Below the pieces are notes generated by a model. It did no database searches. It was not told the origin of the DNA and saw only the letters and a list, made by a program, of their open reading frames with translations. From the NCBI RefSeq assembly GCF_000003815.2, contig NC_049993.1, forward strand, positions 1,579,471 through 1,643,470: a stretch of 64,000 bases of DNA, in the 5' to 3' direction. Source of the DNA: Branchiostoma floridae (lineage: Eukaryota > Chordata > Leptocardii > Amphioxiformes > Branchiostomatidae). How positions within the stretch are numbered: the stretch's first letter is position 1; the number at the start of each line of letters is the position of its first letter. Positions 9,426 to 56,395 of this stretch are shown here, piece after piece. Made by a program: the position numbers and the translations under genes.

Positions 9426-10274
9426 CTGCATCTGCATAGGATACCCCCAAATGACCCCGCGAGGGGCAAAAGTAGGGGCGGGGAGCTGAGGCTCCCGGGT
9501 TAGGGCGGGCAGGCCGCCTGCCTGGCACGGAAGTGCTCAACGTTGGGAGCGCTTACAACCGTGCCAGGCAGGGCATTCCACTCGGGAATTGTGCGTGGGA
9601 AAAAAGAATGTTTGTAGATATCGGTGCGTGCAAATATGTGCTGATATTTGAAGTCGTGACTACCCCGGGTGCGCCCTTGGGCAGGCTTCAGAATATTGCT
9701 GGCGTCTATGTTAATATTATTGTTGACTACTTTGTAGAAAAAGGTGAGGCGGGCGTTCCTCCTCCTTTCGGAGAGGGGGCGCCACTGCAGGTCTGAAAGC
9801 ATTTGTGTCACGCTGCTAGTCTGCCGGTAGTCATTTAGGGTCACTCGGGCTGCCCTGCGCTGGACGGCCTCCACCGCCTGTATCCCTTTGTTGGTGTACG
9901 GGTCCCAGACGATGGCACTATATTCCAAGTGAGGCCGTACCAGCGCTTTGTAACAAGTGGCCTTGACCCTAGATGGACAATGGGTCAAGTTGCGCCGAAT
10001 GACTCCTAGGACCTTACCAGCTTTGCTAGTGGCGTGGTTGATATGGGTGTCCCACCGCAAATCGTCGGACAGTTGTACTCCAAGATAGGGATGGGACTTA
10101 ACACCGGTAAGGGCTTCTCCACAGAGGGAGTACTGAGTTATGATGGGGTGCTTTTTACGGGTGATATGGAGGATGTGACATTTAGAGGGGTTGAACGACA
10201 TGAGCCAACGATTTTGCCATTCTGTTAGCGCATCGAGGTCAGACTGCAGCCCTTGTGCTCGAGGTCAGACTGCA
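9426..10274 (-). mobile_element. LINE fragment, reverse-transcriptase C-terminus, nested in hAT
   Basis: The minus-strand frame ending at 9500 encodes the end of a CR1/jockey-like reverse transcriptase: the YLGV.LSDDL.W..HI block, YKALVRPHLEYSA.VWDPY, RRAAR, and a C-terminal SFFPRTI..WN.LP. The frame remains open upstream of 10201 (ALTEWQNRWLMSFN). The 3' end has a TGCAGA-type tail. GACCT flanks it at 9421-9425 and 10275-10279 as a short target duplication. It is 5'-truncated and inactive. Confidence 0.82.
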
Positions 10275-28101: not shown

Positions 28102-28201
28102 NNNNNNNNNNNNNNNNNNNNNNNNNNNNNNNNNNNNNNNNNNNNNNNNNNNNNNNNNNNNNNNNNNNNNNNNNNNNNNNNNNNNNNNNNNNNNNNNNNN
28201 N
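28102..28201. other. Assembly gap (100 N)
   Basis: Exactly 100 N, a conventional placeholder of unknown true length. The flanks are unrelated: unique sequence to the left and purine-rich low-complexity sequence to the right. Confidence 1.
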
Positions 28202-29463: not shown

Positions 29464-29563
29464 NNNNNNNNNNNNNNNNNNNNNNNNNNNNNNNNNNNNN
29501 NNNNNNNNNNNNNNNNNNNNNNNNNNNNNNNNNNNNNNNNNNNNNNNNNNNNNNNNNNNNNNN
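29464..29563. other. Assembly gap (100 N)
   Basis: Exactly 100 N. By comparison with the duplicates, the missing sequence should contain the TTAACCC terminus and G-homopolymer of the piggyBac-like element. Confidence 1.
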
Positions 29564-34454: not shown

Positions 34455-35499
34455 GTAACACCACCAACAAAAGATCAGGTTACGCAATTGCAATGGGATT
34501 TGGTAGAGGCTACACTTCCCCTTGGGATAACCCTTCCTGCTGTGACTGCCCTTCATGCCTCAAGGTTTGGAGACATAGAAGGTTCACCAGGGCCAGTTGA
34601 ACTGCCTGATATGGTTTTAGAGTTAGATGCATCTTTAGCCCCTTCAGCAATTTGTGAAGTTTCAACTGAGTCCCCTTTGCCCCCTTTGCCTATTGCCTTG
34701 CATCCACAAGTGAAAGACAAGGCCAATGGCAGCATTGATACCTTTTGTTTTACTGATCAGGAGTGCCAACTAGTGGAGGAGGCAACAAGGGGGCAATCCA
34801 AAAATGTTGTGTGGTATAAACAGAGAATGGGGTCCATCACTTCTTCCATTGCATTTGATATTTCACAGTCATACCAACCACACAGCAAAGCCTCCAAAAG
34901 TCGTTTGGCTAACAGATGCCTGCACCATGAATACAGCTCACTAACAAAACCACCGCAAACAAAAGTTGAATCACTCCGGTATGGGTTAGAGAAAGATGTT
35001 GCACGCATGCATTATTTGAATGACATGACAAAAGTTCATCACAGTTTCAATATTTCTGAAACTGGATTGATGGTGCATGGACAAAAGCCTTTCTTAAGAG
35101 CTAGTCCAGATGGTGTAGCAAATTGCTCATGTCACTCCTCAAGAATTGTGGAAATCAAATGTCCCTATGCTGCACGAGACATGACTGTGGAGGAGGCAGT
35201 GAGAACAGGAAAGGTTGCAGCAAGTTCAAGGTGGCTATGTCTTGTCTAAGACAAAACGTGGATACTTCTGCCAAGTGCAAATGGCAATGGCTGTAACAGG
35301 ACAAAAAGAGTGTCATTTTGAAGTATGGACAGAACACAGTTATGTTATTGTCAATGTAGAGTTTGACACTTTGTATTGGAGGGAACTTGAGAAGAAGTTG
35401 ACTCAGTTCTTTTCTGACTTTGTCATTCAAGCCATTAATCATGGCCCCCTTCCAGTGGACAGTAACTTTGACCATATTGGAAATGATAAATACCGGTGA
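34455..35499 (+). pseudogene. YqaJ/lambda-exonuclease-like nuclease, frameshifted
   Basis: The first frame is open from an acceptor-like AG at 34453-34454 to a stop at 35249; it has no ATG near its start. After about 100 residues of linker, the nuclease region has WYKQRMGSITSS, RYGLEKDVARMHY (catalytic Glu region), PFLRASPDGV (Asp), VEIKCPYAARD (E-x-K) and then, in a second frame after a shift at about 35205-35220, YFCQVQMAMAVTG (Gln motif) and VWTEHSYVIVNVEFD..YW. These are the PD-(D/E)XK motifs of the YqaJ recombinase-exonuclease family, common in animal transposon-linked genes. The second frame ends at 35499. All catalytic motifs survive, so the shift may be recent. It is probably transposon-derived. 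Confidence 0.8.
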
Positions 35500-36420: not shown

Positions 36421-37080
36421 GATGAATATTAGTGCACCCCTGTACCGAAATTTAGGTCAGTTGGTTGAAAAACTAAAATCACAAAATTGCTCACTTTGTT
36501 GTACTGTATGCCAATAGTGTTATTGAATCCATGTGTGCATATGTGAAGTGCACTTCTATGCAAGATTTCAGCTCAAACGGTTGTGAAACCAGGGTACAGG
36601 AGCCAAAAATGTATTTTTTTGTCAAAATATGGCCAGAAAGTCGCAAAAAGAAGCATTTTTTTACTACCGTATGCCAAAACTGTTATTGACTCCATGTGTG
36701 CATATAATCAAGGCACCTCTTTACCTAATTTCAGGTCATTCCGATGTAAGACCAGGGTACAAGGGCCAAAATATACAGTTTTGGTAAAAAAATTGCAAAA
36801 AAAAACTCAATAAAAGCATTTTAAAGGCAGATATGTTAAAAATGAAAAAAAAAACGTCCGGGGGTATTGGCCCACTTCACCTTTGTGCCAAAATGCAAGT
36901 AATTCGGTTCTTCTTCTTCTTCTTCTTCGTATTGACGTCCAACTTCAAGTGGTTGAAGGCTCTGGACGTGGTTACGGGTCGTTTGGCTTTGGGTGGTCGC
37001 TTGGGTGGTTCAGCAATGACGGAGCTAACGTGTTTTGAAGATTTGACAGGAGAAAGAAGAAGAAGAAAGAAGAAATATTA
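36421..37080 (-). repeat. Inverted relative of the 50-56 kb repeat
   Basis: In reverse orientation it has ACCCTGGT...GTACC-type units about 167 bp apart (36585, 36752), and its end CTCCTGTCAAATCTTCAAA (reverse of about 37035-37053) matches the start of the 3-kb repeats at 50.02 and 53.47 kb. It contains a (TTC)n run near 36908-36930. Confidence 0.65.
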
Positions 37081-37114
37081 CGAATACAATATATTTCATA
37101 TTTCATAAATAGTA

Positions 37115-37299
37115 CTGTAAATGCAGAAATGTTCGCGGTGGATTAATGTTCGCGGTTTTCGCGGTGACCACTTCAATATTATTCTATCATGATATTAGAT
37201 TGCAGTCTATGGTGTTACCGCGAACTTAAATCCACCGCGAAAAGTCCTTTTTCCCGCTACCGCGAAATTAAATCCCCGCGAACTTAAAAACATTTACAG
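37115..37299. mobile_element. Mariner-like MITE (185 bp)
   Basis: Inverted ends CTGTAAATG/CATTTACAG are flanked by TA at 37113-37114 and 37300-37301. The interior is rich in TTCGCGGT and ACCGCGAA motifs and largely self-complementary. Confidence 0.72.
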
Positions 37300-37439
37300 T
37301 ATCCTATTTGTCCTGGTCGTCCATTAGCCCTCCGTTATAAGTGATGCGGAAATCGTCGTCTTCCGCCTTTGCCCTCTCTGGCTATTGAGCCTTTCCTTTC
37401 CTTCCGTATTCCCAGTATCTAAGATCCCTAGCCGGGAAT

Positions 37440-37668
37440 CCCTCCTATGATTACCTCCTGTAATATCTTCTCGCTCCTTCTCTCTTCGATCCTGTACTCC
37501 TTTATGTTACTCCCTCTTCCTCCCTCTCTTATCTTCCCTTCCTCATCTTTGTCCTCTCAACTCTATCTCCTCCCCCTTACTCATCTTACCCCGTTCTTAT
37601 TTCTCCTCCTCAATCTCGACTTGCTCTCATTACTACGCCGCCCCTTTCTTATCACAACAAACAGAACC
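37440..37668 (+). repeat. Pyrimidine-rich tract
   Basis: About 200 bp of C/T-rich sequence ending CACAACAAACAG, which would serve as a polypyrimidine tract and acceptor for an exon starting at 37669. Confidence 0.6.
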
Positions 37669-38447
37669 TTCACCAGGAATCAAGTGACGGAGTGTCTCGT
37701 GGACCACTCTCCTTTCGAAATGGTCGTAGACACCCATCCGCAAATATCTGAACAGTGCTTTGAAGACAATTGGTAAGTGAGCGGTGTACACAAAATATGA
37801 CTTGTAGACGACCAAGAGTCAGCCTGCTCACTCTTCCTTTCCTCAGTGCCCGTTCCAAGCCTCAAATCGGCTCAGGTACATACACGATTCCGTAAATATG
37901 TATCATCCAGCCTTCCGCGGAATCCCATCGCACTGGATAGACGTCACAACATGTCGGGAAAGAACGTACACAATTCAATTGCTCATCCAGCTTTCCGCGG
38001 ACCCCATTGCACTGGCCAATGTCACAAAATGCTAAAACAAAGTGCAACGTGCAAGACTTCTCAGATCATCCAGCTTCCCGCGGAACCCCTTCGCACTGGA
38101 TATCGTCACAGCGTGTCACGAAAGAAAAAGTACTCGAATTCTCGGAGCGTCCAGCTCTCCGCGGAAACCCTTCGCGCTGGACAATGTCACACCATGCTGA
38201 AGATACGACTGCACACTTTTCGGGTCATTCAGTTTACTGCGGGACCCCATCGCACTGAATGATATATTGCCGTGCTATAAAGAAGCGTCAGACCAAAGGC
38301 GTTCTTGGTCAGACCAATCTCAAAACAGGGTTACTCGATAAGTTCCTAACCATCCAGCATCCCGCGGCACCCCATCGCACTGGAAAACGACAATGTCAAA
38401 ATCTATCTCGAAAAGTAGGGGGGAAAGACTTACAGTTCCTTGAGCTG
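37669..38447 (+). CDS. Candidate 3' exons of an unknown gene, hosting a hairpin array
   Basis: An exon at about 37669-37772 reads TFTRNQVTECLVDHSPFEMV and onward to QCFEDN, then a GTAAGTGAG donor. The next acceptor CTTTCCTCAG ends at 37846; the 29-bp exon keeps the frame (CARSKPQIGS) to a donor at 37876. A further acceptor GACTTACAG at 38435 joins in frame to a stop 8 nt later. Three consistent junctions with one continuing frame are suggestive, but no domain, paralogue or upstream exon confirms it. The 560-bp last intron contains the hairpin array. Confidence 0.33.
37905..38385 (+). repeat. Six ~34-nt hairpins at ~80-bp period with compensatory changes
   Basis: Units lie at 37905-37938, 37985-38017, 38068-38101, 38149-38182, 38227-38260 and 38352-38385. 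Each begins ATCCAG, has a central CCGCGG (unit 5 CTGCGG), then CCCC(A/T)TCGCA, and closes with CTGGAT. The stem changes in pairs: unit 4 is GTCCAG/CTGGAC and unit 5 is ATTCAG/CTGAAT. Intervening segments are 44-51 bp (91 before the last) and the first four share a TGTCACA-like start, so this is a diverged tandem repeat. It fits inside an apparent intron (37876-38435). Confidence 0.78.
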
Positions 38448-38598
38448 CCGTCGGGGTTAGCTGAACTGACCGGCAGCGGCTGGGCGGCGTCGGGGACCGG
38501 AGCGCCAGTCGACTCTGATCCTCTGACCGCTGTCCCTTGTGGCACTGTGCCCTGAAGCCGCCTCCTCAGGTTCCCTGGTATTTAAATTTTCCCACAAC

Positions 38599-40150
38599 TT
38601 TATTCAGTACAAAGAACATGGTTCACAACATAAAACATCACAGCCTAACAGCTTTCCTGGTGCGTCTTGACCCCTCTCTGCTGCTAATGCTTATGCAGGC
38701 CACCAACGGGTCCTATCGGGCCGCACATCTGGCGAGGTGGCGTGTGCCGGCACTGGGTGGTGGTGTGTCCCGCGCATCCCTGTTGTTGGAGGGGGAGAGC
38801 GTCAGACCTGTATGAACAACACGTGAACCATGAGATAGTGGGGAGGGACGGGCGCCCGGCAACAGGTCCGGTCCCAGACAGACAAGTAAAACATACGCAT
38901 CTTACACACCGCCCAGCCTCCACATGCGAGCGAGCCGCGTTACGGGAGGTTATCTGGGTCACGCGCGTCCACAACATCCATCGCGCCTTACAGGTACACA
39001 CTCATACACATGCAAATCAAACTCCAACCTAATGCAAATATAGCGGAAACCCCAAACACAGCCTCGACGTTCAATCTCGGTTGCGAAACAGAAAATCCAC
39101 CTGCCCAAAACAGAAAAAGACACTCAAAAATCGTAAAGAATGCAGCCTCCAGAACTCAGAGACGTTGACTGTTCAGCACGCCGAACTCTTCCAAGGAAGT
39201 TGGGAGTGAAATGTAAACCTGAAAAACAAAGACGTCGCCATGTTGTCTCTGTGGACCATGTCATCGTCGTCCTGTTTCTGCCTGAAATATTCACGAAAAT
39301 AATAAAAAAATGACATCAAAATCTAGAAACTCTCGTTCTGCTCCACACCTCAGCATAAAAAAAAACAGCGTCCACAGCAGTCCTAGACGTGCGATTACAA
39401 AGGATAGAAACTTGGCGATAACAAAAATTTCCAAGTGAGCCGCCATCTTGCCTCTCTATGTAAGCACACAACGAGCTGTCAGAACCTGCTAAAACATTCA
39501 CAAAATCGAAAAATCATACAAAAATCACTCAGCTCCAACATGGAACAAAACGTCAGTGTGAATGAAAAGTCCTAAACTCGTCTCGGCCTAGGATTGGAAC
39601 AGATAGAAACTGTAAAGAAAATTGGGAAGAGCAGCCACACATTTCAAAACTCATGCATATGAATACACAAAGAAATGCAAAGATTAAAACGATACAGCCG
39701 GCAGTCAGAATTCCAGGTGTGCTAGAAAGAATCACAAGCAGCGCAAGCTGCGCAACACGTTGTCAGTATAGGTTGCTCCGAACCTCGTACGAAACACATA
39801 CAAGTCTCACAAAATATGAAACATACCACAAAAAAACACAAAGTACCAACCGACCGTTGGAGCCATACATCAAACCTTCCGTGGAAAAAATGTCGTCCAG
39901 ACGGTAACCACAACGTGACCGCCAGTGCCTCGGCTGTAACGTGCTATCCTGCGGTGTCCTGAATCGGCCTCCCCGCCGGAAAAAATTTCTGCTTTGCGGT
40001 AAGGGACGAGGGGAGAACTCTAGACCGGCCTGAGGAAACGTCGACCACGTGACAAGGAATCGATGTTCTGCATACTTATAGAATGGGCAGATCACGTGGC
40101 TAACATCCGGGCCAATAGGCGACCAGAATAAATAGTGGCAAAGAAACCTA
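38599..40150 (-). other. Candidate minus-strand transcription unit, unidentified
   Basis: On the minus strand, AATAAA (plus 38599-38604) lies at the end of a GC-rich segment. About 1.45 kb upstream, a CpG-containing region (39920-40130) has two CACGTG motifs and a TATAAG. Between them, GCAAGATGGCGGCTCAC (plus about 39430-39446) opens a 50-codon hydrophobic frame, followed by acceptor-like TATTTCAG and TCCAATCCTAG sites. No recognisable domain was found; exon structure is unresolved. Confidence 0.25.
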
Positions 40151-42755: not shown

Positions 42756-43383
42756 GGTGTGCCTAAATACCACAAACGACCACAAACGACTCGGAAATAC
42801 CACAAACGACCACAAACGACTCTAAAATGCAGTGTATATGGGTCAAAGACCTTGTGTGGCGCTCTGGAGACATTGTTTACACATTTATAAATTTTAAAAA
42901 CGCAGCAAGTCCTGCGTATTCACCAGTTATTTCAAGTTAGTCCGCCGGTTTCAAGATCGAGGCGATTCTCGGCCGCCATGTTGGATCGCCCGTGCTAGGA
43001 GTCTGCATGGGGAAGTTCTCGATACCTTCCACGGCTCCATAGACGACAGGACGATAAAACTATGGACGCTGTTGGTTCATAGATTATAGCATGGCACTAT
43101 TCTATCATTGTCAACTTATAAAACTTGTATACTAAGTGTTTTTCAGCCTCAATGCAAGCACGCATTCATTGACAGCGCAGAATCGCTTCGATCTTGAAAC
43201 CGGCGGACTAACTCGAAATAACTGGTGAATTCGCAGGACTTGCTGCGTTTTTTAAATTCATAAATGTGTAAACAATGTCTCCAGAGCGCCACACAAGGTC
43301 TTTGACCCATATACACTGCATACTAGAGTCGTTTGTGGTCGTTTGTGGTATTTCCGAGTCGTTTGTGGTATTTAGGCACACCC
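42756..43383. mobile_element. 628-bp foldback element, MULE-like
   Basis: Terminal inverted arms of more than 200 bp start GGTGTGCCTAAATACCACAAA and contain tandem CCACAAACGAC words. GAAAATACC is duplicated at 42747-42755 and 43384-43392. The paralogous intron at about 18998 has one GAAAATATC and no insertion. The 9-bp duplication and long arms suggest a Mutator-type foldback element, although the superfamily call is inference. Confidence 0.85.
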
Positions 43384-49979: not shown

Positions 49980-52900
49980 CGTAATGTTTCTTTCTTTCTT
50001 TCTTTCTTCTTTCTCCTGTCAAATCTTCAAAGTGATTCATCTCCGCCGTTCCTGGACCGAATGACCTGAAATTTGGCACAGGGGTAGAATGGGCCAATAC
50101 CTTGATGCTTTTTTCTCAGTTTTTTCATATCTGCCTGTAAAATGATTTTATTGAGATTTTTTGGTCAATTTTAGACCAAAACTGTATATTTTGGCCCCTG
50201 TACCCTGGTATTACAACCAAATGAGCTGAAAATTGACAGAGATGTGCCTTAATAATGCCCCCATATAAATCCGATAACACTTTTGGTGTACAGTACACCA
50301 AATTCTTATTTTTGCGATTTTTTGACCAATTTTTGACCAAAAAAGGACACTTTTGGCCCCTGTACCCTGGTATTACAACCAAATGAGCTGAAAATTGACA
50401 GAGATGTGCCTTGATAATCCCTTCATATAAATTCAATAACACTTTTGGTGTACAGTACAACAAAATGCTTATTTTTGCGATTTTTTGACCAATTTTTGAC
50501 CAAAAAAGGACACTTTTGGCCCCTGTACCCTGGTATTACAACCAAATGAGCTGAAATTTGACAGAGATGTGCCTTGATAATCCCTTCATATTAATTCAAT
50601 AACACTTTTGGTGTACAGTACAACAAAATGCTTATTTTTGCGATTTTTTGACCAATTTTTGACCAAAAAAGGACACTTTTGGCTCCTGTACCTTGGTATT
50701 GCAACCGAATGAGCTGAAATTTGACACAGATGTGCCTTGATAATCCTTTCATATAAATTCAATAACACTTTTGGTGTACAGCCAACAAAATGCTTTTTTT
50801 TTCGATTTTTGGCCAATTTTTTACCAAAAAGGACACTTTTGGCTCCTGTACCCTGGTATTACAATTAAATGACCTGAAATTTGGTATAGATAGGCATTAG
50901 ATACTTGGTAACAAGATTCAAGTAAAATTTTTGACATAAACAACTTTAAAATGATTAATTTTGGCACTTTTCTGAGGGGAAATTTGTTTTCTTTTGGCCT
51001 CCTGACGTGACCTTCCGTGACCCCGCACAGAGCCACACCTGTGCGCGTCAGCCGGAGAGTTAATTGAATCAAAGACCTAGCCAATCAGCGAAGAGGAGGC
51101 CAAAGGCTAATTAATATTCATAAGCGGGGCCTCATGATCCCGTATATAGCAGTGTTCCCGCCAGGGGGAGCGAAGCCCGCCTAAGGCTCTCGCATTTTAG
51201 ACTATTCAGAAGGCTTTATATTGTATCAGTTCTTAGGGGCATATCTATGATAATCGCAGCAGTCACTTAACTTCTCTTCAGGAGTTTAGCGTAACACTAT
51301 TTCAGGTCAAACCGTCAAAGGCAACTAAAAACAAACTTTAACGTTACTGAGTTCAACAGTACTTATAACTTGTTATCCGAAGTTGAAACGCTAGCGATGG
51401 TATTTTCGCTGCGCTGTTAGCTCCGTGCGACTGTTGTTGACGGTCTTATAACGGTATATTTTGCACCCCTGTACCCTGGTATGAGTAACATTTGGTATAG
51501 ATAGGCATAAGATAGTTGGTAAAATGATCCAAGTAAAATTTTTGGCATAAAGTACTGTAAGAGGCTTAATTACAGCACTTTTTTTAGGGGAAATTGGTTT
51601 TCTTTCGTTCTCCATGCCATGATCTTTCGGACGTTCACCCCACAGACCCGACATCTGCACCTGCGTCTAGCCGGCAGGAAGAGTTAATTCAATTAATGGT
51701 TCAGCCAATCAGCGAAGAGGAAAGCGAAGGCTAATTAATATTCATAAGCGGGACCACACAATACGTAATACGTTAACTTGAAGACTCAGGCCGTACAGAC
51801 TTCTCGCCAGGATTTTTTTCAAAGCGTCGGACAGGGGTCCGGGGGCCGCCGAATGTCCCTGGCGGGGTCCAGGGGCAGGGCCACTGTGGGGGGGACCCAG
51901 GTGGGCGAAGCCCCCCCGGAAGCTCTTGCATTTTAGACTATTGAGAAGGCTTCTTTTATCAGTTTTTTTAGGGCCATATCTACGATAATCGTAGCAGTCA
52001 CCTACATCTCTTTAGCAGTTTGACTTTAAAATATTTCGGGTCAAAGCTTCAAAGACAACTAAAACCTCATAAACAACAAACTTTACTTAGCTCAACAGTA
52101 TACTAAAATATTGTACGGGTTGCCATCCTTAGTTGAAGCGCTTATTTATAGCGCTAGTATCTTCGCTGCGCCGTTAGCCGCCGTGCGACTTTTGTTGACG
52201 GTCTGATATCCCTACGTCGCCGCCTCGCTGATATTCCCACGGACATGTTTCAAGAAAAATACCCAGCAAAAAACGCTGTTCTGCGTCAAATTCTATTCTA
52301 TAAAACATGTGGGACTCAATGTTACAGTCTAAATATTTTGTAGAAGCACCGCTGTAGGTAAGAAGGTCCTAGCAATGTAAAACATCACGTAGCATGAAGT
52401 TCGCTGTCAACTGGCACAGAGCACATGACTGTTTGAAACTCTAAGTCTGATTAACAGCCGTGTTTGATTGATAGCCGGCGGTCCTTTGATGAAGTCGGCG
52501 AAAGGTGCGTTAGTTAGAAAATCTGCGTTTAGTTTTGATACGTAATTATAAGTTAGACAGTGGCGAGAATGATTATTTTCTCATCAATATTTCTCTTCAG
52601 AATTATTTGAACTTAATTGTACATCTAAACAATTGGCTTACCTGTGCAATGTTTATATGATTAATGATCAGTGTACTGAAATCATGTGTAACGTATGGCT
52701 CCTAGTCAATATATCAGCATTTTCTCTATAGTGACCACCTGTCTATAGTGGCCACATTTCCTAGTGCTGTTGTTGTTTGACATAAACTTTGAACATTTAA
52801 ATTGTAAGTAACTTTAAACTGCCAGAGTTTCGGCCCAATAAAACACTCTCAGCGCCAGGGTATGAACAGACTGACCAGACAGACGAAAATAAATCCTCGA

Positions 52901-53445: not shown

Positions 53446-56395
53446 CGTAATGTTTCTTCTTTCTTCTTCTCCTGTCAAATCTTCAAAGTGATTCATCTCC
53501 GCCGTTCCTGGACCGAATGACCTGAAATTTGGCACAGGGGTAGAATGGGCCAATACCTTGATGCTTTTTTCTCATTTTTTTCATATCTGCCTCTAAAATG
53601 ATTTTATTGAGATTTTTTGGTCAATTTTAGACCAAAACTGTATATTTTGGCCCCTGTACCCTGGTATTACAACCAAATGAGCTGAAATTTGACAGAGATG
53701 TGCCTTGATAATGCCCCCATATAAATTCGATAACACTTTTGGTGTACAGTACAACAAAATGCTTATTTTTGCGATTTTTTGACCAATTTTTGACCAAAAA
53801 GGACACTTTTGGCCCCTGTACCCTGGTATTACAACCAAATGAGCTGAAATTTGACAGAGATGTGCCTTGATAATGCCCCCATATAAATTCAATAACACTT
53901 TTGGTGTACAGTACAACAAAATGCTTATTTTTGCGATTTTTTGACCAATTTTTGACCAAAAAAGGACACTTTTGGCTCCTGTACCTTGGTATTGCAACCG
54001 AATGAGCTGAAATTTGACACAGATGTGCCTTGATAATCCCTTCATATAAATTCAATAACACTTTTGGTGTACAGTGCAACAAAATGCTTATTTTTGCGAT
54101 TTTTGGCCAATTTTTGACCAAAAAAGGACACTTTTGGCTCCTGTACCCTGGTATTACAATTAAATGACCTGAAATTTGGTATAGATAGGCATTGGATACT
54201 TGGTAACAAGATTCAAGTAAGATTTTTGACAAAAACAACTTTAAAATGATTAATTTTGGCACTTTTCTGAGGGGAAATTTGTTTTCTTTTGGCCTCCTGA
54301 CGTGACCTTCCGTGACCCCGCACAGAGCCACACCTGTGCGCGTCAGCCGGAGAGTTAATTGAATCAAAGACCTAGCCAATCAGCGAAGAGGAGGCCAAAG
54401 GCTAATTAATATTCATAAGCGGGGCCTCATGATCCCGTATATAGCAGTGTTCCCGCCAGGGGGAGCGAAGCCCGCCTAAGGCTCTCGCATTTTAGACTAT
54501 TCAGAAGGCTTTATATTGTATCAGTTCTTAGGGGCATATCTATGATAATCGCAGCAGTCACTTAACTTCTCTTCAGGAGTTTAGCGTAACACTATTTCAG
54601 GTCAAACCGTCAAAGGCAACTAAAAACAAACTTTAACGTTACTGAGTTCAACAGTACTTATAACTTGTTATCCGAAGTTGAAACGCTAGCGATGGTATTT
54701 TCGCTGCGCTGTTAGCTCCGTGCGACTGTTGTTGACGGTCTTATAACGGTATATTTTGCACCCCTGTACCCTGGTATGAGTAACATTTGGTATAGATAGG
54801 CATAAGATAGTTGGTAAAATGATCCAAGTAAATTTTTTGGCATAAAGTACTGTAAAAGGCTTAATTACAGCACTTTTTTAGGGGAAATTGGTTTTCTTTC
54901 GTTCTCCATGCCATGACCTTTCGGACGTTCACCCCACAGAGCCGACATCTGCACCTGCGTCTAGCCGGCAGGATGAGTTAATTCAATTAATGGTTCAGCC
55001 AATCAGCGAAGAGGAAAGCGAAGGCTAATTAATATTCATAAGCGGGACCACACAATACGTTAACTTGAAGACTCAGGCCGTGCAGACTTCTCGCCAGGAT
55101 TTTTTCAAAGCGTCGGACAGGGGTCCGGGGGCCGCCGAATGTCCCTGGCGGGGTCCAGGGGCAGGGCCACTGTGGGGGGGACCCAGGTGGGCGAAGCCCC
55201 CCCGGAAGCTCTTGCATTTTAGACTATTGAGAAGGCTTCTTTTATCAGTTTTTTTACGGCCATATCTACGATAATCGTAGCAGTCACTTACTTCTCTTCA
55301 GCAGTTTGACTTTAAAATATTTCGGGTCAAAGCTTCAAAGACAACTAAAACCTCATAAACAACAAACTTTACTTAGCTCAAGAGTATACAAAAATATTGT
55401 ACGGGTTGCCATCCTTAGTTGAAGCGCTTATTTATAGCGCTAGTATCTTCGCTGCGCCGTTAGCCGCCGTGCGACTTTTGTTGACGGTCTGATATCCCTA
55501 CGTCGCCGCCTCGCTGATATTCCCACGGACATGTTTCAAGAAAATACCCAGCAAAAACGCTGTTCTGCGTCAAATCCTATTCTATTCAATGTTTATATGA
55601 TTAATGATCAGTGTACTGAAATCATGTGTAACGTATGGCTCCTAGTCAATAGATCAGCATTTTCTCTATAGTGACCACCTGTCTATAGTGGCCACATTTC
55701 CTAGTGCTGTTGTTGTTTGACATAAACTTTGAACATTTAAATTGTAAGTAACTTTAAACTGCCAGAGTTTCAGCCCAATAAAACACTCTCAGCGCCAGGG
55801 TATGAACAGACTGACCAGACAGACGAAAATAAATCCTCGAACAAGGTTCAATCGTATCTTCCGGGTCTGGCAGGAAGTTGTTAAACTAAAATAAGAATAG
55901 GCTCGATGGCTGATTGCATACAAAGTAAAACAGTTTAACAGTTTTACAGCTTGAAGAAAACAAACGCTCCTACAGTACCTGCACCTGCTTGATAATTATT
56001 AAATCGTATGCCCTACTTGAATAAAAAAAGTTCACTGCAATAATAAATGTACCCACATCACAAGGAGCTTATACTTTTTAAAACTTACACCTAGTTATCG
56101 TACTGAAAATTGTTAATGACATTACATGAAGTCATTCAACAATTTTCAATCAAGATGAAAATTTTCTGAATGGAAGGTGTGATTATTGTCATTTTCTGAT
56201 AAATAGAAGCAAGCTCTGTACATGTTTTTACCTGGAATCAATTCACAATACCAGTCCACTTTGGGGGATAATGTACTGTTAAGAGGATGTTCCATTTTTG
56301 CGCAGGGGTGATTTGGAACAGTCCAATGTTGCGTGGGAAGGGGTATGGCTGAAATATGCTGTATTTGCTCTTAAGCAAATGTCGGCCTTTCTAGT
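53446..56395. repeat. Tandem large repeat, copy 2 (2950 bp)
   Basis: Nearly identical to copy 1 but with four satellite units instead of five (53590-54190) and about 345 bp missing where 52302-52647 lies in copy 1. These two differences account for almost all of the 516-bp length difference. Confidence 0.88.

Follow-up and report, generated by a model that had tools for sequence, protein, structure and literature searches.

A dispersed non-coding mobile element in the amphioxus genome with an internal array of 34-nt dyads

The array of six short dyad units studied here is the interior of a dispersed, non-coding mobile element of about 3.1 kb. It was found in a 64,000-nucleotide stretch of Branchiostoma floridae DNA, which we refer to as the window. 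Judging from sequence organisation, we read the element as a non-autonomous tyrosine-recombinase retroelement of the Ngaro/PAT/VIPER type, the 'retro' part of this assignment being drawn from the repeat architecture alone. For the array itself we propose, with roughly even confidence, that it is an internal cis-acting module of such an element and that its dyads are putative protein-binding DNA sites. The confidence placed in the element class and that placed in the array function are not mutually exclusive.

Dyad units in the window

A repeat-family search and a unit alignment agree on a single family of six units, all on the plus strand, at 37905-37938, 37985-38017, 38068-38101, 38149-38182, 38227-38260 and 38352-38385. 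Their lengths are 34, 33, 34, 34, 34 and 34 nt, and the distances from one start to the next are 80, 83, 81, 78 and 125 bp, just as the original prediction had described them. That prediction also spoke of a near-invariant core; in the alignment, 19 of 34 columns are invariant across the six units. A degenerate core pattern allowing up to three mismatches gave five matches in the window, compared to a shuffle mean of 0.01; the second unit is not caught by this pattern because of its 1-nt deletion. No further copies of the unit were found elsewhere in the window.

Mean pairwise identity is 0.80 within the unit but falls to 0.33-0.36 in the ungapped flanks. Spacers 1-4 are mutually related in all six comparisons (z 3.1 to 6.4), and spacer 5, of 91 nt, is mostly unrelated to the others (z 0.2, 0.3, 2.3 and -0.3 in four comparisons). 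Unit identity far above that of the ungapped flanks, together with spacers 1-4 that are related when gaps are allowed, indicates an old and degenerate tandem repeat of about 80 bp in which a 34-nt core has been kept. The relatedness of spacers 1-4 also upholds the earlier remark that any likeness to CRISPR is superficial. A CRISPR array has near-identical repeats and unrelated spacers of fixed length, whereas here the repeats vary and the spacers are related, so this identity was rejected.

Several other identities were tried and discarded. By eye, one frame is open across most of the array, yet the units lie in different frames, and Pfam gave no match over the array; a coding repeat was rejected because the frame differs from unit to unit and Pfam finds nothing. 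When Rfam was run on the window, none of 4227 families reached its gathering score. The best snoRNA candidate, SNORD53/92, scored 18.3 of 46 bits, and no conserved C/D boxes were seen by eye. There are no tRNA genes in the window, which removes a tRNA origin of the array. A prokaryotic or viral origin was rejected on the basis of zero pattern matches in viral contigs and genome contigs.

Dispersal, ends and repeat architecture of the element

In the window's own genome of 513 Mb, an array search gave at least 43 matching stretches, a lower bound since 40 of 62 candidates were scored. Allowing for two mismatches at most, the unit pattern matches the genome at 161 + 139 places (300), compared to 1 + 1 (2) for a reversed control, and an exact 18-mer from the left end (the A end) has 56 + 47 matches compared to 0 for its control. 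Twenty fetched loci of 9.9 kb each (L009-L028) share an element of approximately 2.5-3.6 kb and differ in their flanks, with some copies truncated or interrupted. Arrays were read at 51 loci, namely the window, L009-L028, L029, L032-L058, L059 and L060. The first 49 of these sources hold four to six units each, and L059 and L060 hold seven and five full units, respectively, along with partial ones. The original prediction had named the interior of a transposon as the identity that would count against it, and the dispersed copies, differing flanks and A-end matches show the array to be just that, albeit in an element without a known family name.

Selection of loci limits what can be read from these counts. 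As 38 of the 49 sources (L009-L028 and L041-L058) were chosen by array similarity, the presence of an array in them proves nothing. The array is also present in all ten loci chosen by the A-x-B-A end alone (L029 and L032-L040). Copies lacking the array do exist, as seen in the internally deleted L061 and in the remnants L030, L031 and L062 (L061 and L062 being checked by a simple pattern only), so the array is dispensable for the persistence of a copy. A large array of a satellite with a repeat unit of about 40 bp lies next to a divergent copy that carries the dyads, at C2:8.30 Mb (L059, 462-2283) and at C1:18.82 Mb (L060).

A purely local explanation would make the array a locus-specific non-coding RNA, or a minisatellite appearing as a 'mirage' at an exon boundary. 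Amphioxus genes do have minisatellite-like duplications at intron-exon boundaries, according to the available part of PMC3087553, and a GTAAGT-like donor can be seen by eye on the minus strand near 38433. The same array recurs within the same surrounding element at dozens of other places, however, which refutes the local explanation as the primary one and leaves it very little probability.

Self-comparison of copies reveals a regular plan, A1-x-B1A2-interior-B2, in all four of L018, L012, L024 and L028. In these, the left end A (64-71 bp) is directly repeated 275-297 bp further in, and a second copy of the right end B (93-129 bp) stands immediately before A2, with B1 and A2 overlapping by AG. 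A contiguous B1A2 was found in six copies, which are these four plus L029 and L061. Among the other self-compared copies, L030, L031, L062 and L059 are remnants or lack the left part, and L060 contains a long N gap; L031 is a 277-bp A-x-B remnant, and L030 and L062 are less complete ones. Of the 20 loci L009-L028, 18 have two A ends and L015 has one, and in L014 none was found. Among the 100 A-end matches listed (of 103), there are 41 pairs and 18 singles, and the two members of a pair are 274-297 bp apart in 40 of the 41 listed pairs and 217 bp apart in one. In sequence, B1A2 equals B2 followed directly by A1, the join that a circle closed at its two ends would contain. On the minus strand, the element reads in the split-direct-repeat order of Ngaro, PAT and VIPER, as given in the accessible portions of PMC4157794, PMC6681497 and PMC9210276.

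Inspection by eye of stop-to-stop frames in four copies gave no conserved open reading frame and no reverse transcriptase/RNase H or tyrosine recombinase. Without a conserved reading frame, the element can at most be a non-autonomous dependant. The nearest of 51 places with the PF00589 domain is 23.7 kb from an A end (with 100 of 103 A-end matches listed), and no autonomous partner with shared ends was found when these places were compared to the A-end matches listed or when L061 and L062 were inspected. Autonomous copies had been considered at C15:10758600 and C12:13185219, and were rejected because L061 is internally deleted and L062 is a remnant. A helper is nevertheless plausible, because Ngaro-like elements with reverse transcriptase and tyrosine recombinase exist in B. 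floridae, according to the part of PMC2632668 available.

That neither a reverse transcriptase nor an autonomous partner was found would also suit a Crypton-like or other DNA transposon, with direct repeats produced by tandem insertion. Tandem insertion sits poorly with the recurrence of one repeat order in several subfamilies and with the narrow spacing seen in all but one of the listed A-end pairs. In L018, moreover, a 32-bp inverted match is all that links the x segment, which lies between A1 and B1, to the interior of the element. We know of no Cryptons with such split repeats, and consider this origin unlikely. Two further classes were a poor match. A hammerhead-bearing Penelope-like element was rejected, as the ribozyme expected in its terminal repeat did not appear: there is no Rfam hit at gathering score in four loci, and no hammerhead core by regular expression on either strand of five copies. 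A Penelope reverse transcriptase with GIY-YIG is likewise absent, there being no conserved reading frame in four copies, although a non-autonomous form would be compatible with this. For a Helitron, the expected signature (5' TC, 3' CTRR, insertion between A and T) does not agree with ends that read AGTATCC.../...AAATAG on the plus strand and CTATTT...GGATACT on the minus strand.

Junctions with flanking DNA carry a signal of their own. In 23 left junctions preceding AGTATCC, position -2 is A in 17 and position -1 is T or C in 20 (raw counts), giving a target preference for an A-rich stretch plus T or C, followed by AG. Most copies have AG at both element ends. When the joined flanks of 17 copies were compared to the fetched DNA, three junction-crossing matches were obtained; the empty-site relatives are diverged paralogous repeats (65-78% identity for L029) and not alleles, so their weight as proof is limited. 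The L029 target has four unoccupied relatives, in L028, L021 and L013, with a single AG in the form GCATAAGAT-AG-TATCA. The filled L029 site has AG at both ends of the element, so that only the 2-bp AG is doubled compared to its unoccupied relatives. A relative of the L024 target, in L009, has two bases (GA) at the insertion point, and the L019 junction is ambiguous over three bases within an A run. We see no target duplication beyond a short shared core, a pattern that recombination at a two-base core would predict. The L029 target is similar in sequence to the junction of the element itself, AAATAGTATCC.

The copy in the window extends over 37111-40135 and is placed on the minus strand by assuming the Ngaro/PAT/VIPER order A1-interior-B1A2-B2. 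It is homologous to the 20 loci L009-L028 from 37298 to 40135-40142 in the best-preserved of these. Its ends, AG followed by TATCC and AAAT followed by AG, were read against the boundaries of other copies, which puts the left-end AG at 37111-37112 and the right-end AAATAG at 40130-40135. This copy has the simple A ... B form, with one A end (37111-37368, AG plus TATCC...) and one B end (40010-40135, left limit approximate), corresponding to the A1=A2 and B1=B2 direct repeats of the four copies described above; 39982-40136 matches B1 of L009-L012. The A1-x-B1 part is missing, as would be expected if A1 and A2 had recombined. The A end is split by a nested MITE at 37115-37299, which has CTGTAAATG...CATTTACAG termini and TA on both sides, and which is inserted in the TA of the AGTATCC end, two bases inside the left end of the element; element sequence resumes at 37300. 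A stretch related to the MITE also occurs in L015, L023, L026 and L030.

The window holds further repetitive and mobile-element features. An open reading frame at 34455-35249 (plus strand) shows similarity to a YqaJ-like recombinase (PF09588, E 2.3e-12) and, with E 2.5e-7, to viral alkaline exonuclease (PF01771). It adjoins zinc-finger genes and is probably part of another mobile element. The window contains tandem C2H2 zinc-finger genes. A second frame, at 9500-10264 (minus strand), resembles by eye the C-terminal region of a LINE-type reverse transcriptase. A long inverted repeat at 42756-43382 has 200-nt arms of 95% complementarity separated by 191 nt, and is foldback- or MITE-like. What seems to be one tandem repeat of about 163 bp occurs at 50139-50883 and at 53595-54178, with 92% matches in each, and a 163-bp period is also seen at 36502-36822. 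Two assembly gaps of 100 N lie at 28102-28201 and 29464-29563.

Conservation, pairing and possible role of the array

Conservation was assessed in an alignment of eight copies: the one in the window and seven others, drawn from the 21 loci with an array (L009-L029) for which at least 7 kb had been fetched. Identity is 0.86-0.94 for units 2-6, compared to 0.69 for the whole element and 0.63 for the array spacers. Unit 1 reaches only 0.07, probably because five-unit copies cannot be aligned there, and with it included the six-unit mean is 0.77. Conservation elsewhere in the element can be as high as in the units. One example is a second conserved module at 38620-38919, with identity of 0.82-0.95 among the eight copies in 60-bp bins, which is not coding, as it lacks codon periodicity and its indels do not come in threes. 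This module is GC-rich, contains a GGGCGCCCGG core, and is as conserved as the array between subfamilies. Because the family is non-coding, its conserved parts should be cis-acting signals; these parts are the two ends, the array of dyads and the module at 38620-38919.

Pairing within the window units is extensive but incomplete. Over the outer and inner helices of the six units, 57 of 60 cells are paired (91.7% in the outer stem and 100% in the inner helix), a level matched by 19 of 500 shuffles. The original prediction was of a stem that covaries while pairing is kept. We do see double changes at pair 1 of unit 4 (A-T to G-C) and at pair 3 of unit 5 (C-G to T-A), but three outer-stem cells are broken: unit 2 has two of them, and unit 6 has the third, its outer pair 1 being A-A. 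When single units were folded on the plus strand, units 3, 4 and 5 gave z of -1.5, -2.9 and -1.8, which is better than most shuffles, and units 1, 2 and 6 gave -0.2, +0.6 and -0.2, which is no better than shuffles.

Across copies, the 249 units collapse to 195 distinct extended units, used in a tree-based test, and to 68 distinct 34-column rows, with the units of L059 and L060 left out. In the 68 distinct units, pair 3-32 is CG in 54, TA in 13 and broken in 1, and pair 4-31 is CG in 66, AT in 1 and broken in 1. Pairs 5 and 6 are nearly fixed, pair 1 is unpaired in 20 units and pair 2 in 10, and no double change occurs in the inner helix. The T-A form of pair 3 appears in two different unit positions, and pair 4 co-changes in L045/L046. 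On the tree, the two columns of pair 3 change together on a single branch (p 0.07), as do those of pair 4 (p 0.019), while those of pair 1 change 9 and 8 times without sharing a branch. None of 458 control column pairs falls at p<0.01, and the best two, at 0.038 and 0.050, both lie below pair 3, so pair 4 alone stands out. This test is a rough one, carried by few changes, with Fitch states arbitrarily resolved and with 500 permutations for controls versus 5000. A column-shuffle test, which ignores relatedness, is stronger for three measures, where 0 of 500 shuffles did as well, and null for the other two, where 269 and 287 did. In 35 distinct units, 95.7% of cells are paired. Overall, complementarity of the arms has been maintained, as judged from a small number of independent events, and the covariation is real but thin. 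The idea that paired substitution reflects selection on structure is supported, but more weakly than was claimed: co-changes are seen at pairs 3 and 4, of which pair 4 alone stands out, and the changes at pair 1 are not coordinated on the tree.

Symmetry of this kind could also be kept without structural selection, by template switching during copying that corrects quasi-palindromes. Such correction would account for the one-step perfecting of pairs 3 and 4, each with one intermediate among the 68 units, and for there being only about three events overall. It leaves unexplained why the loop letters GCGG, CCC and CGC are as conserved as the arms and why units 2-6 are so much better conserved than the spacers, and pairs 1-2 have not been corrected. 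We regard this process as an improbable account of the dyads.

The main rival to DNA-binding dyads places the units in the same element but makes them RNA hairpins in its transcript, acting as a packaging, reverse-transcriptase or stability signal. With the near-fixed G-U at columns 16-24 excluded, wobbles in the 68 distinct units are divided 16:14 between G-U and A-C, so no RNA strand is favoured, and an RNA hairpin should favour one. A plus-strand RNA identified by wobble asymmetry was rejected on this ratio. The excluded G-U, present in 64 of 68 units, is itself a pair in plus-strand RNA only and speaks for the hairpin, as do the high proportions of paired cells in the window and in the 35 distinct units, the double changes at pairs 3 and 4, and an RNAalifold consensus that recovers the same two-helix fold on the plus strand (z -3.0). 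Against these stand the frequent loss of pairs 1 and 2, an inner helix with no double change, and the three of six window units that fold no better than shuffles. Low fold scores are also not peculiar to the array, as 9 of 70 window-strand folds have z < -2, with the lowest (-5.3 and -4.6) near 39940, outside the array. If the minus strand is sense, as the repeat order suggests, the fold would suit the antisense strand better. The strict letters GCGG, CCC and CGC..CTG, taken with the lack of wobble-strand bias, lead us to rank DNA-binding dyads first and RNA hairpins second, the latter being possible but well short of an even chance.

Two other folds in the element were recorded. A conserved hairpin is predicted at approximately 38440-38500 on the plus strand, a short way downstream of the array, to which RNAalifold gives E -22.7 and z -3.6 in a fold starting at 38380, and the stretch 39940-40060 near the B end has the lowest consensus-fold z of the element, at -5.3 on the plus and -4.6 on the minus strand.

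For DNA-binding dyads in a non-autonomous retroelement, we propose the following mechanism. Enzymes supplied in trans would copy the element, whose transcript would be reverse transcribed and closed into a circle, and the B-A junction of the circle would then recombine at AG-containing target sites. The four to seven repeated 34-bp dyads would serve as putative protein-binding DNA sites with an enhancer- or insulator-like role, as do the repeated zinc-finger sites in gypsy. They may have been retained since copies losing them would spread poorly.

Comparison with known systems

Among the titles and abstract openings listed for amphioxus repeats, minisatellites and split-direct-repeat elements, none describes such an array; the element family itself may have been catalogued already. 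To our knowledge, template and target selection by tyrosine-recombinase retroelements is poorly understood. As the family is non-coding, its putative cis-acting signals are open to testing, and the empty-site comparison adds a target similar to the circle junction of the element itself. Should the array act as an insulator or enhancer, the genome of a chordate outgroup would contain a dispersed regulatory module. A broader and tentative proposal is that a fully non-coding chordate element of several subfamilies lives as a parasite of a tyrosine-recombinase retrotransposon and has spread successfully thanks to the 34-nt dyad array, either as an RNA recognition signal for the proteins of the helper or as an insulator/enhancer. 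If true, the array would serve for recognition in cis, in a form that the literature searched did not show for this class, and would be a portable regulatory module at 50 loci or more.

The gypsy insulator of Drosophila likewise consists of a retroelement carrying an array of long binding motifs, with degenerate spacing, outside its coding region. Gypsy belongs to the LTR elements and Su(Hw) is the protein bound at its sites, whereas the motif described here is a dyad of other sequence and a putative binding site.

Ngaro-like retrotransposons near the VCBP genes of B. floridae have split direct repeats in the same kind of genome, according to the available parts of PMC2632668 and PMC9210276. 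Unlike the element in the window, for which none were found, those have gag, RT/RNase and YR reading frames in the parts described, and the likeness seen is one of repeat plan. The SIRE/VIPER pair of Trypanosoma cruzi shares the split direct repeats, in the order A1-interior-B1A2-B2 (accessible portion of PMC6681497). VIPER, as presented there, encodes Gag-like, YR and RT/RH products, in contrast to a non-coding interior of about 2.6 kb with a dyad array in a chordate genome. SIRE is the short, non-autonomous A2-x-B2 form in the same portion of PMC6681497, and its counterpart here is seen in the A-x-B remnants, such as L031.
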